From: Acetobacteraceae bacterium | GTDB taxonomy: Bacteria > Pseudomonadota > Alphaproteobacteria > Acetobacterales > Acetobacteraceae | Direction of reading: 5' to 3' | DNA length: 64,000 nucleotides | NCBI GenBank assembly: GCA_024280945.1 | Contig: JAMXLO010000081.1 | Span: 1-64,000, forward strand | Program-made: the position numbers and the translations under genes | Notes under the pieces: model-generated | The model's input: only the letters and a program-made list of their open reading frames with translations | Told to the model about the DNA's origin: nothing | Database searches by the model: none | In this document: piece by piece, positions 13,703 to 19,387 of the stretch | Position numbering within the stretch: the stretch's first letter is position 1 | Layout of the letters: each line of letters starts with the position of its first letter

Positions 13703-13971
13703 CGTCTCACCCCTTCCCGCCGAGTCGGCAGGCACGATGCCAGGGGCGGAGCCATGTCGCCACCGCCCGCCCAAAAATTCATTGTTGGCTAATCCCTGGA
13801 ATCGCGGCTGAACCTTGGAAAGTTCATCGATCATTAACTCATCGTTCCTAGTATGTCCCGCAGCGGATCTCCATGATCCAACCCCCCACGATCCACTCAT
13901 GGCGAAAAATTCGCATGGCCAGGCGCCCTGCGACGCGCAGGGCCGCCCGTTTGACCCTCTGCGAGGCAGCC
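13703..13971. other. Divergent intergenic region
   Basis: These 269 bases separate the FAD oxidoreductase start from the calpain-RTX start and must hold the promoters of both. The stretch around 13775-13850 is AT-richer than its surroundings. I cannot name a specific operator. Confidence 0.4.
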
Positions 13972-16623
13972 ATGTCGAAAGTGAACCGCTCGTTCAAGAC
14001 ATCGAAGCTCACGTCCGATTTCGACGGTAACGACCTGTTAGCCGATCTGCCTATCGCCAACGAGCCGCTTCTTATTGCAGCCAACTGCAACGCCGGTGTT
14101 CACGCGGTAACGGCCGGCGCGCCGCCAATCACTCATGTCGCCGCTGCGCTGCCGGCCACGGTGAAGGTGTCGGCCACGCTCAATCAGGTGCTGTACCTGC
14201 AGGAGGCGGGCGATACTTCGCTGATCAGCGTCCGTGACATTAACCAGGGACAGATAGGCGACTGCTTTCTGCTGTCCGTGATCGGCGAGCTTGCGCTGTT
14301 TCATCCCAGCGCGATCATGAACATGATCACCGTGAATGCGAACGGGACCGAGACAGTTACCCTCTATCTTGATGCCTGGGGGCGGTTGCCGACCTACGGC
14401 ACGACCTCGTTCAAGCCAGTATCCATCACCGTGAGCAATGACTTTCCCAGCTACGCCGTCAACAGCGGCGTGACGCAGGATGTCTTCAACGGACAGAAAG
14501 AGATCTGGGTCCAGGTCCTCGAAAAGGCCGTGGCGACACTCAACGGCGGCTACAACAGCATCGCCTATGGCGGCAATCCGATGATCGCCATGGAGGAGCT
14601 GGCTGGCCAGCCGACGACATGGATGTCGTCCAGTGCGCTCACGCTGCAGGCGCTGCAGAGCTACATCGGCGCGGGCGACCTGATCGTGATGGGCACCCGT
14701 TCGTCAGGCCTGTCCTACGGGCTCGTCGGCAGCCACGCCTACATGTTCGAGAGTCTGACCATGGTGGGTGGCATACCCATGGTCCAGTTGGGTAACCCTT
14801 GGGGCTTCAACCATCCGTCCCTCATCCCACTATCGCAGCTCGCGTCGAGCGGGATTGTCGAAGTGGATATTGGCCATTTTCCCAGTGGGAACAGCAACGT
14901 TATTGTCGGCGGCGCTGGCAACGACACCAGGACGCTGACCGCCCTTATCCTCAATGGCTCCGTCGACCTCGGTGCCGGGCAAGACACACTGACCCTGGCG
15001 AATGGGACGAACACCCTCACGGTTGCGAACACCGAGACCGTCATCGGCGGAACCGGCGATGATACGGTCATGCTTTCGACGGCCGCCGTCGGCACCAGCA
15101 TCAACTTGGGGGGTGGCAACGACAAGTTGACCCTAGGCAACTTCGTTAACACCGCGACCGTGGCCAACGTGGAGACGATTATTGGGGGCAGCGGCAACGA
15201 CACGATCACTCTTTTCAGCGCATTGACTGCCGCGATGCAGGTGGACCTGGGCGCAGGCAGCAACAAGCTGATCCTCGCAGCGGGTGGCAACCTGGGTATT
15301 GCGCGCAATGTCAACACGCTGGTCGGCAGCGGTGGCGCCGACGTGATCGCCCTGGCGACCGCCTTGGTCAATGGCAGCATTGATCTCGGGACGGGCATCG
15401 ATAGCCTTACGCTGGCGAACGGCACCAACAGCGCATCGGTCGCGAATGTCGAGGCTCTTGTCGGCGGTGAGGGCGACGACGCGATTACCCTGACGACTTC
15501 GCTCAGCCCTGGGGTGTCGGTGGACCTGGGTGCGGGCAACAACAAGCTGATACTTGCGGCCGGCGGGATGGGCACGATCAGGAATGTCCGCACGCTTATC
15601 GGCGGAGCCGGCAACGATAACATCACATTTGCGACGGGGCTTTCCAGCGGAAGCGTCGATCTCGGTGGCGGCAGCGACAAACTCGCGCTGGCGGGTGGCG
15701 GGAACGCCCTGACTGCCGCCAATGTAGAGACATTGATCGGTGGGTCCGGCGCGGATGCCGTCACCCTCAGCACGACGGCCGTCAACAGCAATATCGACCT
15801 TGGTGGCGGCAACGATGCACTGTACTTCGCCAACTCCACCAACATGGCGACGGTCGCCAACACCGAGACCATCGTCGGCGGCAGCGGCAACGACACGATC
15901 ACATTGGCGACTGCGCTGACGCCTGGAATGTTGGTGGACCTCGGTGCCGGCAGCAACAAGCTGACACTGGCCAATGGCGGAAACTCCGGCACAGTCAAAA
16001 ACGTCGCCTCGCTGATTGGCGGCACTGGTGCGGACTCGGTGACGCTCGGTAGCCCGTTGACGAACGGATCGGTCGATCTGGGTGCCGGCAATGACACGCT
16101 GACGCTCGCCAATGCGACCAATTCCGTTACCCTCATGAATACCGAGACCGTTGTGGGCGGCAGCGGCAACGATACGATCGTGCTGAGCGGCAAAGTCGCA
16201 AGCCTGGTGATCGGCGGTGGTGGCATGAACTTCATCACTGGAAGCAGCGCCGCCGATACATTCGTGTTCGACCAGCGCAGCAGCGGCAATGTCACGAAGG
16301 TGATGAACTTCAGCACAATGAACGGCGACAAGATTGCGCTCGATACGACGGGCAGCAATATCCTGGGCAGCAATACCTATGATCTGGGAGGGGCGCCGCT
16401 CGCGCTCAACACTGACCTCGTCAACGTTGCCAATGCCGCGGCTCTGCTGAAGAGCAGTCTAAACAATCACGGCAAGGGCGGTTTCGCATTTGAGCAGGAC
16501 AATGGACAACTGTATTATAGCAGCAACGGCTCCTTCGCGGGCGGCGGGACATTGATCGCGGTTATCACGACAGACGGGACGCATCCCTGGCTATTTAACG
16601 TCAGCAGCTTCATTCAGGTGTAG
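13972..16623 (+). CDS. Secreted calpain-like cysteine protease fused to RTX-type repeats
   Basis: An 883-residue protein in three parts. Residues about 85-290 form a calpain-family (C2) protease domain with Gln92 and Cys98 in NQGQIGDCFLLS, His255 in GSHAYMFE and Asn275 in LGNPWGFNHPS, the expected Cys-His-Asn triad with the oxyanion Gln. Residues about 313-740 hold nine full 46-47 residue repeats (ten GGxGxD-type motifs), each with a second LGxGxDxLxL motif, as in calcium-binding RTX proteins. The last 120 residues (TFVFDQRSSG, GQLYYSSNG, LFNVSSFIQV) resemble serralysin-type type I secretion ends. There is no Sec signal. ATG at 13972 has GAGG five bases upstream; ATG at 13915 is possible. No secretion genes are adjacent. 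A strong hairpin follows the stop. Confidence 0.82.
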   Translation: MSKVNRSFKTSKLTSDFDGNDLLADLPIANEPLLIAANCNAGVHAVTAGAPPITHVAAALPATVKVSATLNQVLYLQEAGDTSLISVRDINQGQIGDCFLLSVIGELALFHPSAIMNMITVNANGTETVTLYLDAWGRLPTYGTTSFKPVSITVSNDFPSYAVNSGVTQDVFNGQKEIWVQVLEKAVATLNGGYNSIAYGGNPMIAMEELAGQPTTWMSSSALTLQALQSYIGAGDLIVMGTRSSGLSYGLVGSHAYMFESLTMVGGIPMVQLGNPWGFNHPSLIPLSQLASSGIVEVDIGHFPSGNSNVIVGGAGNDTRTLTALILNGSVDLGAGQDTLTLANGTNTLTVANTETVIGGTGDDTVMLSTAAVGTSINLGGGNDKLTLGNFVNTATVANVETIIGGSGNDTITLFSALTAAMQVDLGAGSNKLILAAGGNLGIARNVNTLVGSGGADVIALATALVNGSIDLGTGIDSLTLANGTNSASVANVEALVGGEGDDAITLTTSLSPGVSVDLGAGNNKLILAAGGMGTIRNVRTLIGGAGNDNITFATGLSSGSVDLGGGSDKLALAGGGNALTAANVETLIGGSGADAVTLSTTAVNSNIDLGGGNDALYFANSTNMATVANTETIVGGSGNDTITLATALTPGMLVDLGAGSNKLTLANGGNSGTVKNVASLIGGTGADSVTLGSPLTNGSVDLGAGNDTLTLANATNSVTLMNTETVVGGSGNDTIVLSGKVASLVIGGGGMNFITGSSAADTFVFDQRSSGNVTKVMNFSTMNGDKIALDTTGSNILGSNTYDLGGAPLALNTDLVNVANAAALLKSSLNNHGKGGFAFEQDNGQLYYSSNGSFAGGGTLIAVITTDGTHPWLFNVSSFIQV
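14908..16190 (+). repeat. Ten-fold RTX-like coding repeat, period about 138-141 bases
   Basis: Within the calpain-RTX gene, GGxGxD-type motifs recur every 46 residues, with 47 in two units. Each unit reads roughly GG-x-G-x-D, a short strand, DLGxGxDxLxL, and NxETLIGG. Units 3, 5 and 8 share a variant (LGAGxNKL-LA), hinting at duplication of larger blocks. Confidence 0.85.
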
Positions 16624-16660: not shown

Positions 16661-17017
16661 TTATGCCTCGACGACGACCTGACCGTGCATGTGCGGATGC
16701 AGCCCGCAGATGTACTCGTACGTCCCGGTTTGCTCGAACTTGTAGGCGAAGCTCTCTTCGGTATCCAACGGATGCGACTTCATTCTCAGGCCGGGGCAGA
16801 CGATGCTGTGCGGAATGTCGTCGTGGTTTATCCATGTGACTGGCGTGCCGACCTTCACCTTCAGAGGCGTCGGCGCAAAGGTGAAGTTGTCAATGACGAT
16901 CTCAGCCTCTGCGGCGTGCGCCACTTTGCCAAGGATCACGACCAGCGCACTGCCGCCGAGGGCACGCCGCAGCAACTGGCGCCGGGCGATACCGCTCGGC
17001 TCCAACGGTCCATACAT
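16661..17017 (-). CDS. Exported cupredoxin (amicyanin/plastocyanin-like, type 1 copper)
   Basis: A 118-residue blue-copper protein for periplasmic electron transfer. The type 1 site is complete: His70 in HDDIPHSIV and Cys104-x2-His107-x2-Met110 in YICGLHPHM, the amicyanin-like spacing. The N-terminus has a twin-arginine type leader (ARRQLLRRALGG, hydrophobic run, AHA cleavage site). ATG at 17017 has AAGGA upstream and lies ten bases after the metallophosphoesterase stop, so the two are one operon under the divergent ECF-like promoter. The electron partner is not encoded here. Confidence 0.9.
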   Translation of the reverse strand: MYGPLEPSGIARRQLLRRALGGSALVVILGKVAHAAEAEIVIDNFTFAPTPLKVKVGTPVTWINHDDIPHSIVCPGLRMKSHPLDTEESFAYKFEQTGTYEYICGLHPHMHGQVVVEA

Positions 17018-17027
17018 GATGTGTCCT

Positions 17028-17948
17028 TCAGTTGGCGAGCGGCGCGTCGACGATGGCGAGTGGCGCCTTGGCCGACACCAGGTTGACGTTGGCGATGCCC
17101 AGGTAGCGCCTTAGCTCGCCAGCCGGAACCACCATAGGGCCGGGGCTTTTTGCGGTGCCCGGTGTTGGCTGCGGGAAGGCGGTGGAACGCGCCGTGTGGA
17201 AGGAAACGTTGCCCTCCACCTTCTGCATCACCTGATGTATGTGGCCGTTCAGCACCGTAACCGAGCCGAACTTCTTCAGGTACGCTAGCGCCTGCGCACC
17301 ATCGGCGGTGCCCCACCCCCAGTCCTGATATACAATCCACAGCGGCACGTGTGCGAACACGACGATCGGCGTGCTCGCCGACAAGTGCTTTACATCATCC
17401 TCGAGCCATTCGAGCTGATCGTGGCCGAGGTTGCCCAACCCGTTGCCCTGCAGGTTCACCACGTTCACCAGGCCAATGAAGTGAACCCCATTGGTGTCGA
17501 AGCTGTACCAGCCGTCGCCCTTGGTGCCCTTGCCGAAGCGGTTCAGGTAGCTCTTCCCCTCTTCTTCCAGGATGTCGTGCTCGCCCGGCACGGTGTGCAT
17601 TGTCAGCTTGGTCGCGCCGCAGAGTTGTGCCGCGGTGTCGAACTGAGCCGGTTTCGACAGGTGAGTGATGTCGCCGGTGTGGATCATGAAAGCCGGCGCC
17701 TGTTTCAGCTTGCCGACATCGTCCAGCGCCTCCTTCAGGGTCGCCGTCACGTCGGGGTTGGCGGCCTTGTCGAAGCCCAGATGGCTGTCGCTGATCTGCA
17801 CGAAGGTGAATTCGTTGGTCGCGGCCTCGGCCGCGCCAAGGATCTGCGAGCGCGGCACGCCTCCGGCCACCGTCCAGACCATGGCGGTGCCTGCCCAGGT
17901 CATGCACTTCAGGAAGCCGCGGCGCTGCAGGGCGGGGTCTATGATCAT
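17028..17948 (-). CDS. Tat-exported calcineurin-like metallophosphoesterase
   Basis: A 306-residue binuclear-metal phosphoesterase. The metal-ligand blocks are SDSHLG, HTGDITH, PGEHD (GNHD in most relatives), FAHVPLW and NGHIHQ. The N-terminus holds the Tat motif LQRRGFLKCM and a hydrophobic helix ending near AEAA, so it acts in the periplasm. ATG at 17948 has GGGAGAG upstream and is preferred over ATG at 17975. It is followed by the cupredoxin and faces the ECF sigma gene across 118 bases. Substrate unknown; phosphodiester or phospholipid head groups are possible. Confidence 0.87.
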   Translation of the reverse strand: MIIDPALQRRGFLKCMTWAGTAMVWTVAGGVPRSQILGAAEAATNEFTFVQISDSHLGFDKAANPDVTATLKEALDDVGKLKQAPAFMIHTGDITHLSKPAQFDTAAQLCGATKLTMHTVPGEHDILEEEGKSYLNRFGKGTKGDGWYSFDTNGVHFIGLVNVVNLQGNGLGNLGHDQLEWLEDDVKHLSASTPIVVFAHVPLWIVYQDWGWGTADGAQALAYLKKFGSVTVLNGHIHQVMQKVEGNVSFHTARSTAFPQPTPGTAKSPGPMVVPAGELRRYLGIANVNLVSAKAPLAIVDAPLAN

Positions 17949-17978
17949 CGATTGGCTCTCCCTTTGCTGTGCCATCCC

Positions 17979-18041
17979 TACCCGGCAACCGGTGGCCTTA
18001 TTCCCTGCGCCCGAGGGAATAAGATTGGGCGCTACCGGGTC
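17979..18041. promoter_or_regulatory. Mirror-image pair of ECF-type promoters in a palindrome
   Basis: CTTATTCCCT (17997-18006) and AGGGAATAAG (18014-18023) are a perfect 10-base inverted repeat around a seven-base centre. Read outward, each arm gives GGGAATAAG, then exactly 13 bases, then GGGT: 18015-18040 on plus, toward the sigma gene, and 18005-17980 on minus, toward the metallophosphoesterase. The base pair before GGGT is CC in both. GGAAT-type -35 boxes and short spacers fit ECF sigma promoters, so the two units are probably co-controlled by this sigma factor. The GGGT ends 26 and 31 bases before the two start codons. Confidence 0.65.
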
Positions 18042-18066: not shown

Positions 18067-18639
18067 ATGAAGGCCTTGCCCCAGGATGACCGTCGCCGAC
18101 GCTTCGAGCTGCTGGCCCTGCCGCACCTCGATGCCGCCTACAATCTGGCCCGCTGGCTGGCGGGCAACACGGCCGATGCCGAGGACGTGGTGCAGGACGC
18201 GTATCTGCGCGCCTATCGCTATTTCGACGCGTATCAAGGAGGGAACTTCCGCGTGTGGCTGCTGACGATCGTGCGCAATGCCTTCCTGACCTGGGTGAAG
18301 GAGAACCGTTCGGGGCGGATGGTATTCGTGCCCGATACGCCGGTCGCCGATAACAGCGAGAGCCATGCTACGTTGTGGGGCGAGACGCCGCGCGATCCGG
18401 AGTCCCTGCTGCTCGAGAGTGTGGACAGCCAGATGCTAAGCCGGCTGATGGAGCAACTGCCGGCGGAGTACCGCGAGGTTCTGCTGCTGCGGGAGGTCGA
18501 AGACCTTTCCTACAAGGAGATTGCCGAGATCACCCGAATACCGATCGGCACCGTCATGTCGCGGCTGTCGCGGGCGCGGCTCAGCTTGCGCAAATTGTGG
18601 CTCCGCCAGGAAGAGACGGAGGCGGCGCATGGAGTGTGA
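18067..18639 (+). CDS. ECF-type RNA polymerase sigma factor
   Basis: A 190-residue group 4 sigma factor. Region 2 is seen in AAYNLARWLAGNTADAEDVVQ followed by the RVWLLTIVRN segment, and region 4 in LPAEYREVLLLRE and YKEIAEITRIPIGTVMSRLSRAR, the -35-recognising helix-turn-helix. The start ATG at 18067 is the first in-frame Met that precedes region 2 by the usual distance; the frame is open far upstream inside the divergent gene. The anti-sigma gene overlaps by 11 bases, so the pair is made together. Probably autoregulated through the GGGAATAAG site upstream. Confidence 0.92.
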   Translation: MKALPQDDRRRRFELLALPHLDAAYNLARWLAGNTADAEDVVQDAYLRAYRYFDAYQGGNFRVWLLTIVRNAFLTWVKENRSGRMVFVPDTPVADNSESHATLWGETPRDPESLLLESVDSQMLSRLMEQLPAEYREVLLLREVEDLSYKEIAEITRIPIGTVMSRLSRARLSLRKLWLRQEETEAAHGV

Positions 18640-19387
18640 ACGAGCCACCACTTTGCTGTCGGGGCTGATCGACAGCGCCCTGGGTCCGATCTCACGCCTG
18701 CGCGTGAACCACCATGTCGCCGGCTGCGGGGCCTGCGCGGCCAGGCTCGAGGAGTTGCGTGCCATGCAGGCCGCGTTACGCACCAAGCTGCCCTATCACC
18801 GGGCGCCGCCTGGCCTGGCGGCCCGCATCGGCGCGGCACTGCCACGCGAGGAGCCGCCGCCTGTCATCGCAGGAACGCGACCGCATCGCTGGTTGCGCAT
18901 GCCGGCATTCAGCCTGGCCGGGACTGGGCTTGCCGGTGCGGTCGCCGGGGTGGCGCTCACCGTCGCGGTGACGGGCGGGCAGAGCGACCAGACCACGGAT
19001 GTCATCAACAGCCATATCCGTTCGATGCAGGCCCAGCATCTGACCGATGTGCAGACCAGTGACCAACACACGGTCAAGCCGTGGCTGTCGGCGCGGCTCG
19101 ACGTCTCGCCGCCAGTGCGTGACCTGAAGGATGACGGGTTTCCGCTGATCGGCGGGCGGCTCGACTACATCGACGGGCATCCGGCCGCCGCCGTTGTCTA
19201 TCAGCGCGCCAAGCACGTGATCAACCTGTTCGCATGGGCTTCTCCCGGGCCGAACGAGCCGTTCCGGGAACAGACGCGACAAGGTTTCAACGTCGTCACG
19301 TGGCGGCAGGACGGGATCCGGTATTATGCGGTATCGGATGTCGAAGCGGACCAGCTGGCGCAGTTTGCCAAGCTGGTCGCACGATAG
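18629..19387 (+). CDS. Membrane anti-sigma factor with zinc-binding N-terminus
   Basis: A 252-residue partner of the ECF sigma factor. The N-terminal anti-sigma domain has the zinc motif His-x3-Cys-x2-Cys in NHHVAGCGACAARLEE. One membrane helix follows at about residues 93-112 (LAGTGLAGAVAGVALTVAV) and the remaining 140 residues, including a SARLDVSPPVRDL...GRLDYIDG region, are periplasmic and would be the sensor part. The zinc motif is often redox-sensitive in such proteins. Signal unknown; neighbours suggest copper, redox or envelope stress. Confidence 0.88.
   Translation: MECERATTLLSGLIDSALGPISRLRVNHHVAGCGACAARLEELRAMQAALRTKLPYHRAPPGLAARIGAALPREEPPPVIAGTRPHRWLRMPAFSLAGTGLAGAVAGVALTVAVTGGQSDQTTDVINSHIRSMQAQHLTDVQTSDQHTVKPWLSARLDVSPPVRDLKDDGFPLIGGRLDYIDGHPAAAVVYQRAKHVINLFAWASPGPNEPFREQTRQGFNVVTWRQDGIRYYAVSDVEADQLAQFAKLVAR

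Follow-up and report, generated by a model that had tools for sequence, protein, structure and literature searches.

A Palindrome in an Acetobacteraceae Genome Very Probably Forms Two Back-to-Back Promoters for One ECF Sigma Factor

Genes and Features at the Locus

The stretch of DNA analyzed here, referred to as the window, is 64,000 nucleotides long and comes from a contig of an Acetobacteraceae bacterium. The first-listed open reading frames placed a metallophosphoesterase gene (mpe) at 17028–17975 on the minus strand and a sigma factor gene at 18067–18639 on the plus strand, divergent around a palindrome. The features, with the start codons considered likely, were:

16661–17017, minus strand: amicyanin-like cupredoxin; RR-type signal recognized by eye
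17028–17948, minus strand: calcineurin-like metallophosphoesterase (mpe), with a twin-arginine-like RRGFLK read by eye; likely ATG start at 17948
17980–18005, minus strand: putative promoter toward the metallophosphoesterase/cupredoxin unit; -35 GGGAATAAG at 18005–17997, N13, -10 GGGT at 17983–17980; predicted start about 17970
17997–18023, no strand: inverted repeat with 10-base arms and a 7-base loop, GCGCCCG; GGAATAA cores separated by 11 bases
18015–18040, plus strand: putative promoter toward the sigma/anti-sigma unit; -35 GGGAATAAG at 18015–18023, N13, -10 GGGT at 18037–18040; predicted start about 18050
18076–18639, plus strand: ECF sigma factor with Sigma70_r2 and Sigma70_r4_2; likely TTG start at 18076
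18629–19387, plus strand: anti-sigma factor with a zf-HC2 N-terminus and one hydrophobic stretch read by eye

The best match of the sigma factor was NCBIfam PRK12533, at a score below the cut-off of that family (222 of 248 bits). In the anti-sigma factor the zf-HC2 domain was matched, and the hydrophobic stretch and the C-terminal part were recognized by eye only. The closest solved phosphoesterases to mpe (Rv0805 and bacterial phosphohydrolases) were weak matches. According to the available part of one report, a metallophosphoesterase of the Bacillus subtilis SigM regulon frees carrier lipid (PMC11898649), and by analogy a carrier-lipid role may be a lead to the substrate of mpe. A literature search of partial coverage found no paper on a sigma/anti-sigma/metallophosphoesterase/cupredoxin cluster. 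Elsewhere in the window, another perfect inverted repeat, 10 bases or more in length and probably a terminator, lay from 16627 to about 16660 between the convergent ends of the cupredoxin gene and an ORF at 13873–16623. This ORF of 916 residues had a calpain-family protease domain (Peptidase_C2) and weak matches to RTX-like repeats.

The Palindrome and Its Two Probable Outward Promoters

Direct reading and a pattern search identified a perfect inverted repeat at 17997–18023, composed of CTTATTCCCT (17997–18006), the loop (18007–18013) and AGGGAATAAG (18014–18023). The first-pass annotation had described a perfect 10-base repeat placing GGGAATAAG-N13-GGGT outward on both strands, which both approaches bore out, and CC preceded GGGT in both promoters. 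The layout was not that of a bidirectional promoter with a shared -10, the window having two separate -10 elements on the outer sides of the palindrome.

The pattern GGGAATAAG-N12..14-GGGT occurred twice in the window, compared to zero occurrences in 100 dinucleotide shuffles. In the whole genome (6,420,847 bases) it was again found twice, both times at the palindrome, and the reversed control pattern was absent. The palindrome per se was rejected as the key fact. Perfect arms of at least 10 bases with a loop of up to 12 had four start positions in the window (two of them belonging to one repeat), and 30 first-order Markov simulations of the window gave a mean of 2.2 and a maximum of 6. As a bare inverted repeat near the simulated count is weak evidence, the weight of the finding lies in the paired -35/-10 layout, in which each arm is a -35 with its own -10, and in its conservation.

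The exact motif GGAATAA-N15-GGT was present at seven sites in the genome, two of which were the palindrome promoters. Four of the other five lay under one or more long ORFs, several of them probably spurious, and the fifth (L040) under no listed frame of at least 150 codons; none of the five was a convincing promoter or pointed to a further target. With up to one mismatch, the 117 matches genome-wide equaled the background (119 for the control). A genome-wide regulon defined by this motif was therefore rejected.

Two Sinorhizobium meliloti ECF26 promoters have starts mapped by two methods, which by our own count lie 11 and 12 bases downstream of the G in GT, and this distance predicts starts in the window at about 18050 (plus strand) and 17970 (minus strand). 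The latter would lie inside the first-ATG frame of mpe, so that translation probably begins at ATG 17948, which is preceded by AAGGGAGAG, instead of ATG 17975; this ATG, at codon 10, is common to 7 of the 12 divergent family loci described below. Judging from the same loci, the sigma gene probably starts at TTG 18076 instead of ATG 18067. Codon 1 was ATG in the window only, and codon 4 was TTG in 10 of the 12 and GTG in one, the remaining locus having GTG at codon 5.

Conservation within the Acetobacteraceae

Relatives of mpe were found in 44 of 200 and 62 of 397 genomes of the family, in two overlapping draws that included the genome of the window, and all 64 mpe places were retrieved. Most loci were co-directional, in the order mpe-cupredoxin-sigma-antisigma, with a single arm upstream of mpe. 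Twelve divergent loci, the window among them, belonged to one clade of 13 members (97/92 on the mpe tree); the contig of the thirteenth (G026) ends at the locus. Direct reading revealed both outward promoters in all twelve, some with imperfect cores such as GGAATATC or GGAATTTC. Three further loci were rearranged and had a promoter at the head of each unit: G088 and G270, of another clade, were divergent with mpe and sigma some 700 bases apart, and G229 had the order sigma-antisigma followed by mpe-cupredoxin.

Seven ECF26-linked promoters printed for S. meliloti were turned into a matrix, which was applied upstream of each gene with the 99% level of mononucleotide shuffles as threshold. This level was exceeded before mpe in 41 of 63 loci (22 were below; the set included two second copies in genomes already counted and did not contain G026) and before sigma in 7 of 59, each of them a locus at which sigma heads a unit of its own, compared to 1 of 61 for cupredoxin and 0 of 52 for the anti-sigma gene. 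The other divergent sigma sites had lower scores, several below the threshold. G088 and G270 scored high at both promoters, and both sites of G229 were recognizable at scores below the threshold. In the window, the plus-strand site scored 18.7, whereas the minus-strand site reached only 8.4 against a level of 13.1, despite the same -35 and GT, because the bases after its GGT are AG. The best mpe site read NGAAT(A/T) in 61 of 63 loci, the exceptions being G034 and G004, the latter near a contig end.

The conserved -10 core was GGT, the next base being mostly C or A, and the G of GT lay 22–23 bases after the first base of GGAAT. The originally proposed GGGT preceded by CC thus held in the window, whereas across relatives the core shrank to GGT and the other bases proved local. 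The ECF-type motif tracked the starts of transcription units in the family loci. Conservation of the arms at orthologous loci, a check suggested at the outset, was confirmed by the motif before mpe in nearly all loci and by the two promoters at every divergent locus of the clade.

Conservation beyond the Family

Draws at the class and phylum levels were positive for 8 of 384 and 14 of 397 genomes, that of the window not counted, and one genome was in both. A further draw yielded 112 of 249 genomes, of which 47 were read; its family is probably Burkholderiaceae, because L167 and the Caballeronia plasmid L119 are identical in the promoter region. A loose-pattern promoter faced mpe in 20 of 21 non-family loci, all except L129 (shuffles: mean 1.2, maximum 4), and in 51 of 52 loci of a second set, all except the Streptomyces locus L176 (mean 4.0, maximum 10); some of these 52 were longer copies of loci already retrieved or near-identical records. 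Nine of the 21 non-family loci and 27 Burkholderiaceae loci had divergent pairs, as did plasmids of Caballeronia and Gemmatirosa. The four-gene cluster was thus found in Acetobacteraceae, other Alphaproteobacteria, Burkholderiaceae and on one Gemmatimonadota plasmid.

This last plasmid, from Gemmatirosa kalamazoonensis (L172), carried the entire divergent cluster in another phylum with an mpe 61% identical, possibly as a result of horizontal transfer. At L123 (G670), one of the nine divergent non-family loci, the sigma match was displaced beyond the anti-sigma match and the promoter-adjacent frame looked truncated, and the cluster seems rearranged.

Likeness to ECF26 Promoters and Placement of the Sigma Factor

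Both window sites have the -35 GGAATA and the -10 GT of ECF26 promoters. In the available parts of the sources, the RpoE1, RpoE4 and RpoE6 promoters of S. meliloti have a -35 GGAAT(A) and a -10 GT at an offset of 22–23, sigma and anti-sigma share one operon, and rpoE1 and rpoE4 are autoregulated (PMC6180224, PMC3511301, PMC6527743). The window differs in its -10, GGT, and in its target, metallophosphoesterase/cupredoxin; it also has a back-to-back ECF26-like pair, unlike anything seen in those parts of the S. meliloti literature. The rpoE6/SMa0142 region was rejected as a precedent, since the SMa0142 ECF26 promoter there overlaps and faces the rpoE6 promoter, described by the authors as resembling RpoD/RpoH promoters (PMC6180224, PMC3511301, PMC6527743, as far as available). 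A further S. meliloti locus, rpoE8 (ECF29) with amcY (L111), also has an ECF sigma gene beside a cupredoxin gene, but it has no metallophosphoesterase match, is co-directional and, in the accessible part of the source, has the -35 GGGAAC (PMC6180224).

Compared with the matching ECF factors of the S. meliloti megaplasmids, the window sigma scored 79.3 bits with RpoE6, the sole ECF26 member compared, 73.2 with RpoE8, 68.2 with RpoE5 and 17.7 with RpoE9; in a second comparison RpoE6 and RpoE8 tied at 65.4 each. On the sigma tree, which had long branches and open forks, RpoE6 joined RpoE5 and the C37 and C122 factors of the same genome as the window (97/92), not the clade of the window, and this group stood next to two deep family sigmas (90/77). 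The window system would thus appear to work like ECF26 in promoter sequence and spacing; its sigma factor is only a possible member of group ECF26.

A/T Tract Upstream of the -35

In the co-directional family loci (47 eligible, 45 used, with G004 and G034 lacking a site; one duplicate and G026 were left out beforehand), the A/T-richest 6-mer fell at -21 to -10 in 38 of 45, compared to a mean of 21.3 and a maximum of 33 in 1000 shuffles. These promoters had an A/T block 11–20 bases upstream of the -35, at about -44 to -53 from the start, where an alpha-CTD (UP) element usually lies. Outside the family (30 loci, L129 lacking a site; L189, L191, L192 and L193 dropped beforehand as duplicates) the tract was not replicated, with 14 of 29 loci against a shuffled mean of 13.6 and a maximum of 22, so it is a family feature at most. 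In wide divergent family pairs a tract sat between the promoters. Some divergent pairs (G964, G088, Gemmatirosa) were without the tract. The three narrow pairs (the window, G051 and G014) had the opposing TTATT at -18/-19, where relatives have the tract. Narrow pairs were nested among wide ones; on the drawn tree this takes two changes, although well-supported branches make just one of them necessary.

Gap between the -35 Cores

The GGAATAA cores lay 11 bases apart in the window and in the same genus, 12 in G014, and 24–27 in the other nine loci of the family clade. The gap was 23 in G088, where the partner promoter faces a small ORF ahead of sigma, and 1, 2, 14, 15, 22, 23, 24, 24, 46 (or 27), 22, 32, 33, 35 and 36 elsewhere. 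Several loci allowed more than one pairing (including L007, L071, L122, L123, L143 and L153), and the fuller promoter was chosen; for L123 (G670) this gave 46, the rejected reading being 27. With gaps ranging from 1 to 46 across lineages, the idea raised initially, that the two promoters may be bound as a pair, was not supported for a fixed geometry, and fixed-pair binding was rejected.

No gaps of 3–10, 16–21 or 28–31 occurred among the mpe/sigma pairs as read. For 15 lineages (our own grouping), phasing at 10.5 bp gave R = 0.648 with a peak at 11 (Rayleigh p ~0.002; uniform null 0.0023). Without G088, R was 0.625 (p 0.004), and 0.545 (p 0.016) when G670 was also set to 27; one value per family (n = 8) gave R 0.657 (p 0.03). 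The strictest set plus a pair on a Terrarubrum flagellatum plasmid gave R 0.443 (p 0.053). That pair (L117, 3756/3765) had back-to-back GGAATAA arms 8 bases apart with weak -10s and lay between another gene couple, encoding a related sigma factor and a peptidoglycan-binding protein. The phasing windows were fixed before the Burkholderiaceae set was examined, a gap of 32 being already known in that genus (G999, L119), and all 27 divergent Burkholderiaceae loci fell inside them; the only new values were 22, 33, 35 and 36, and these closely related loci represent few events by descent. The gap of 22 was on two branches of the drawn tree, and the gap of 27 in the family clade lay outside the phasing windows. 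The clustering of gaps near helical turns, with p from ~0.002 to ~0.05 depending on the loci counted, is a lead only.

Interpretation of the Palindrome

We consider it highly probable that the palindrome is two back-to-back copies of one ECF-sigma promoter, read by the adjacent sigma factor and firing both units. The initial suggestion that one sigma factor serves both units is the likely reading given the same outward motif on both, its persistence in relatives and its match to S. meliloti ECF26 promoters. The signal is of a known ECF type, here in an unusually tight back-to-back arrangement, and the inverted repeat would reflect the need for one and the same -35 on either strand.

It is improbable that another ECF factor of the same genome is the main reader, with the adjacent sigma one reader among several. 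The C37 factor (L065, C37:17315–17731), which groups near S. meliloti RpoE6, has GGAATAA-N15-CGTC 140 bases before its matched stretch and may be a cross-talking ECF26-type system, and ECF26 factors of S. meliloti do cross-talk according to the available parts of the sources (PMC3511301, PMC10880074). However, the motif stays with the sigma/mpe cluster across families, and mostly has GGT rather than CGT. Still less credible is an operator of a dimeric regulator with incidental -10-like matches. Perfect 10-base arms do look operator-like, and arms of such length around a short loop are no rarity in this window, but co-directional loci have only the one arm upstream of mpe, the distance between arms is highly variable, the arms have a -10 downstream at an offset of 22–23, and the sequence agrees with mapped ECF26 promoters. 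A hairpin, terminator or recombination site, which the location of an inverted repeat between genes might suggest, can practically be dismissed, as the palindrome has no T run, lies between divergent starts, and is represented at other loci by single arms serving as promoter elements.

The adjacent ECF sigma factor, then, very probably drives both units. It would be released by a membrane anti-sigma factor, perhaps upon a stress signal, and RNA polymerase carrying it would read GGGAATAA through region 4 and open the DNA at GGT. Rightward transcription from about 18050 would produce sigma and anti-sigma, a positive autoregulation with built-in negative feedback, and leftward transcription from about 17970 would produce the metallophosphoesterase and the cupredoxin, both probably exported. 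Given cores 11 bases apart, the upstream edges of two holoenzymes would touch or overlap, and the two are therefore likely to exclude each other; the polymerases probably could not sit at once, and firing would alternate.

Promoter competition, also proposed in the first-pass annotation, is plausible. In the available part of one study, symmetric sequences of Escherichia coli bidirectional promoters are bound by polymerase in two orientations, one excluding the other; those promoters share a -10 read by sigma-70, whereas the window has two complete ECF promoters meeting at their -35s (PMC12825309). For E. coli promoters sharing a -10, the same part of the study describes competition as absent at basal activity and present under strong activation of one direction (PMC12825309), which provides a direct expectation for an induced ECF pair. 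A literature search of partial coverage found no paper combining ECF factors with back-to-back divergent promoters.

A broader possibility, which we regard as rather unlikely, is that back-to-back ECF pairs are a recurrent device with the -35s near the same helix face (gaps near 1–2, 11–15, 22–27, 32–36 and perhaps 46). The polymerases of the sigma and effector operons would then interact by exclusion at short gaps and via a shared A/T tract at longer ones; in the genus of the window the tract would be gone, each -35 taking the place of the upstream element of the other. Such a device, if real, would tie sigma autoinduction to effector output, and the gaps found in nature, from 1 to 46, offer a ready experiment on interference or cooperation between divergent promoters of the same sigma factor. 

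What began as a sequence curiosity becomes a defined, testable regulon core for the sigma/anti-sigma/metallophosphoesterase/cupredoxin cluster. In four plasmid relatives (L115 5574, L114 5333, L118 5341 and L121 5264), a second GGAATAA or CGAATAA promoter-like site was located just after the anti-sigma gene; it precedes varied genes and likely marks an extra regulon member.
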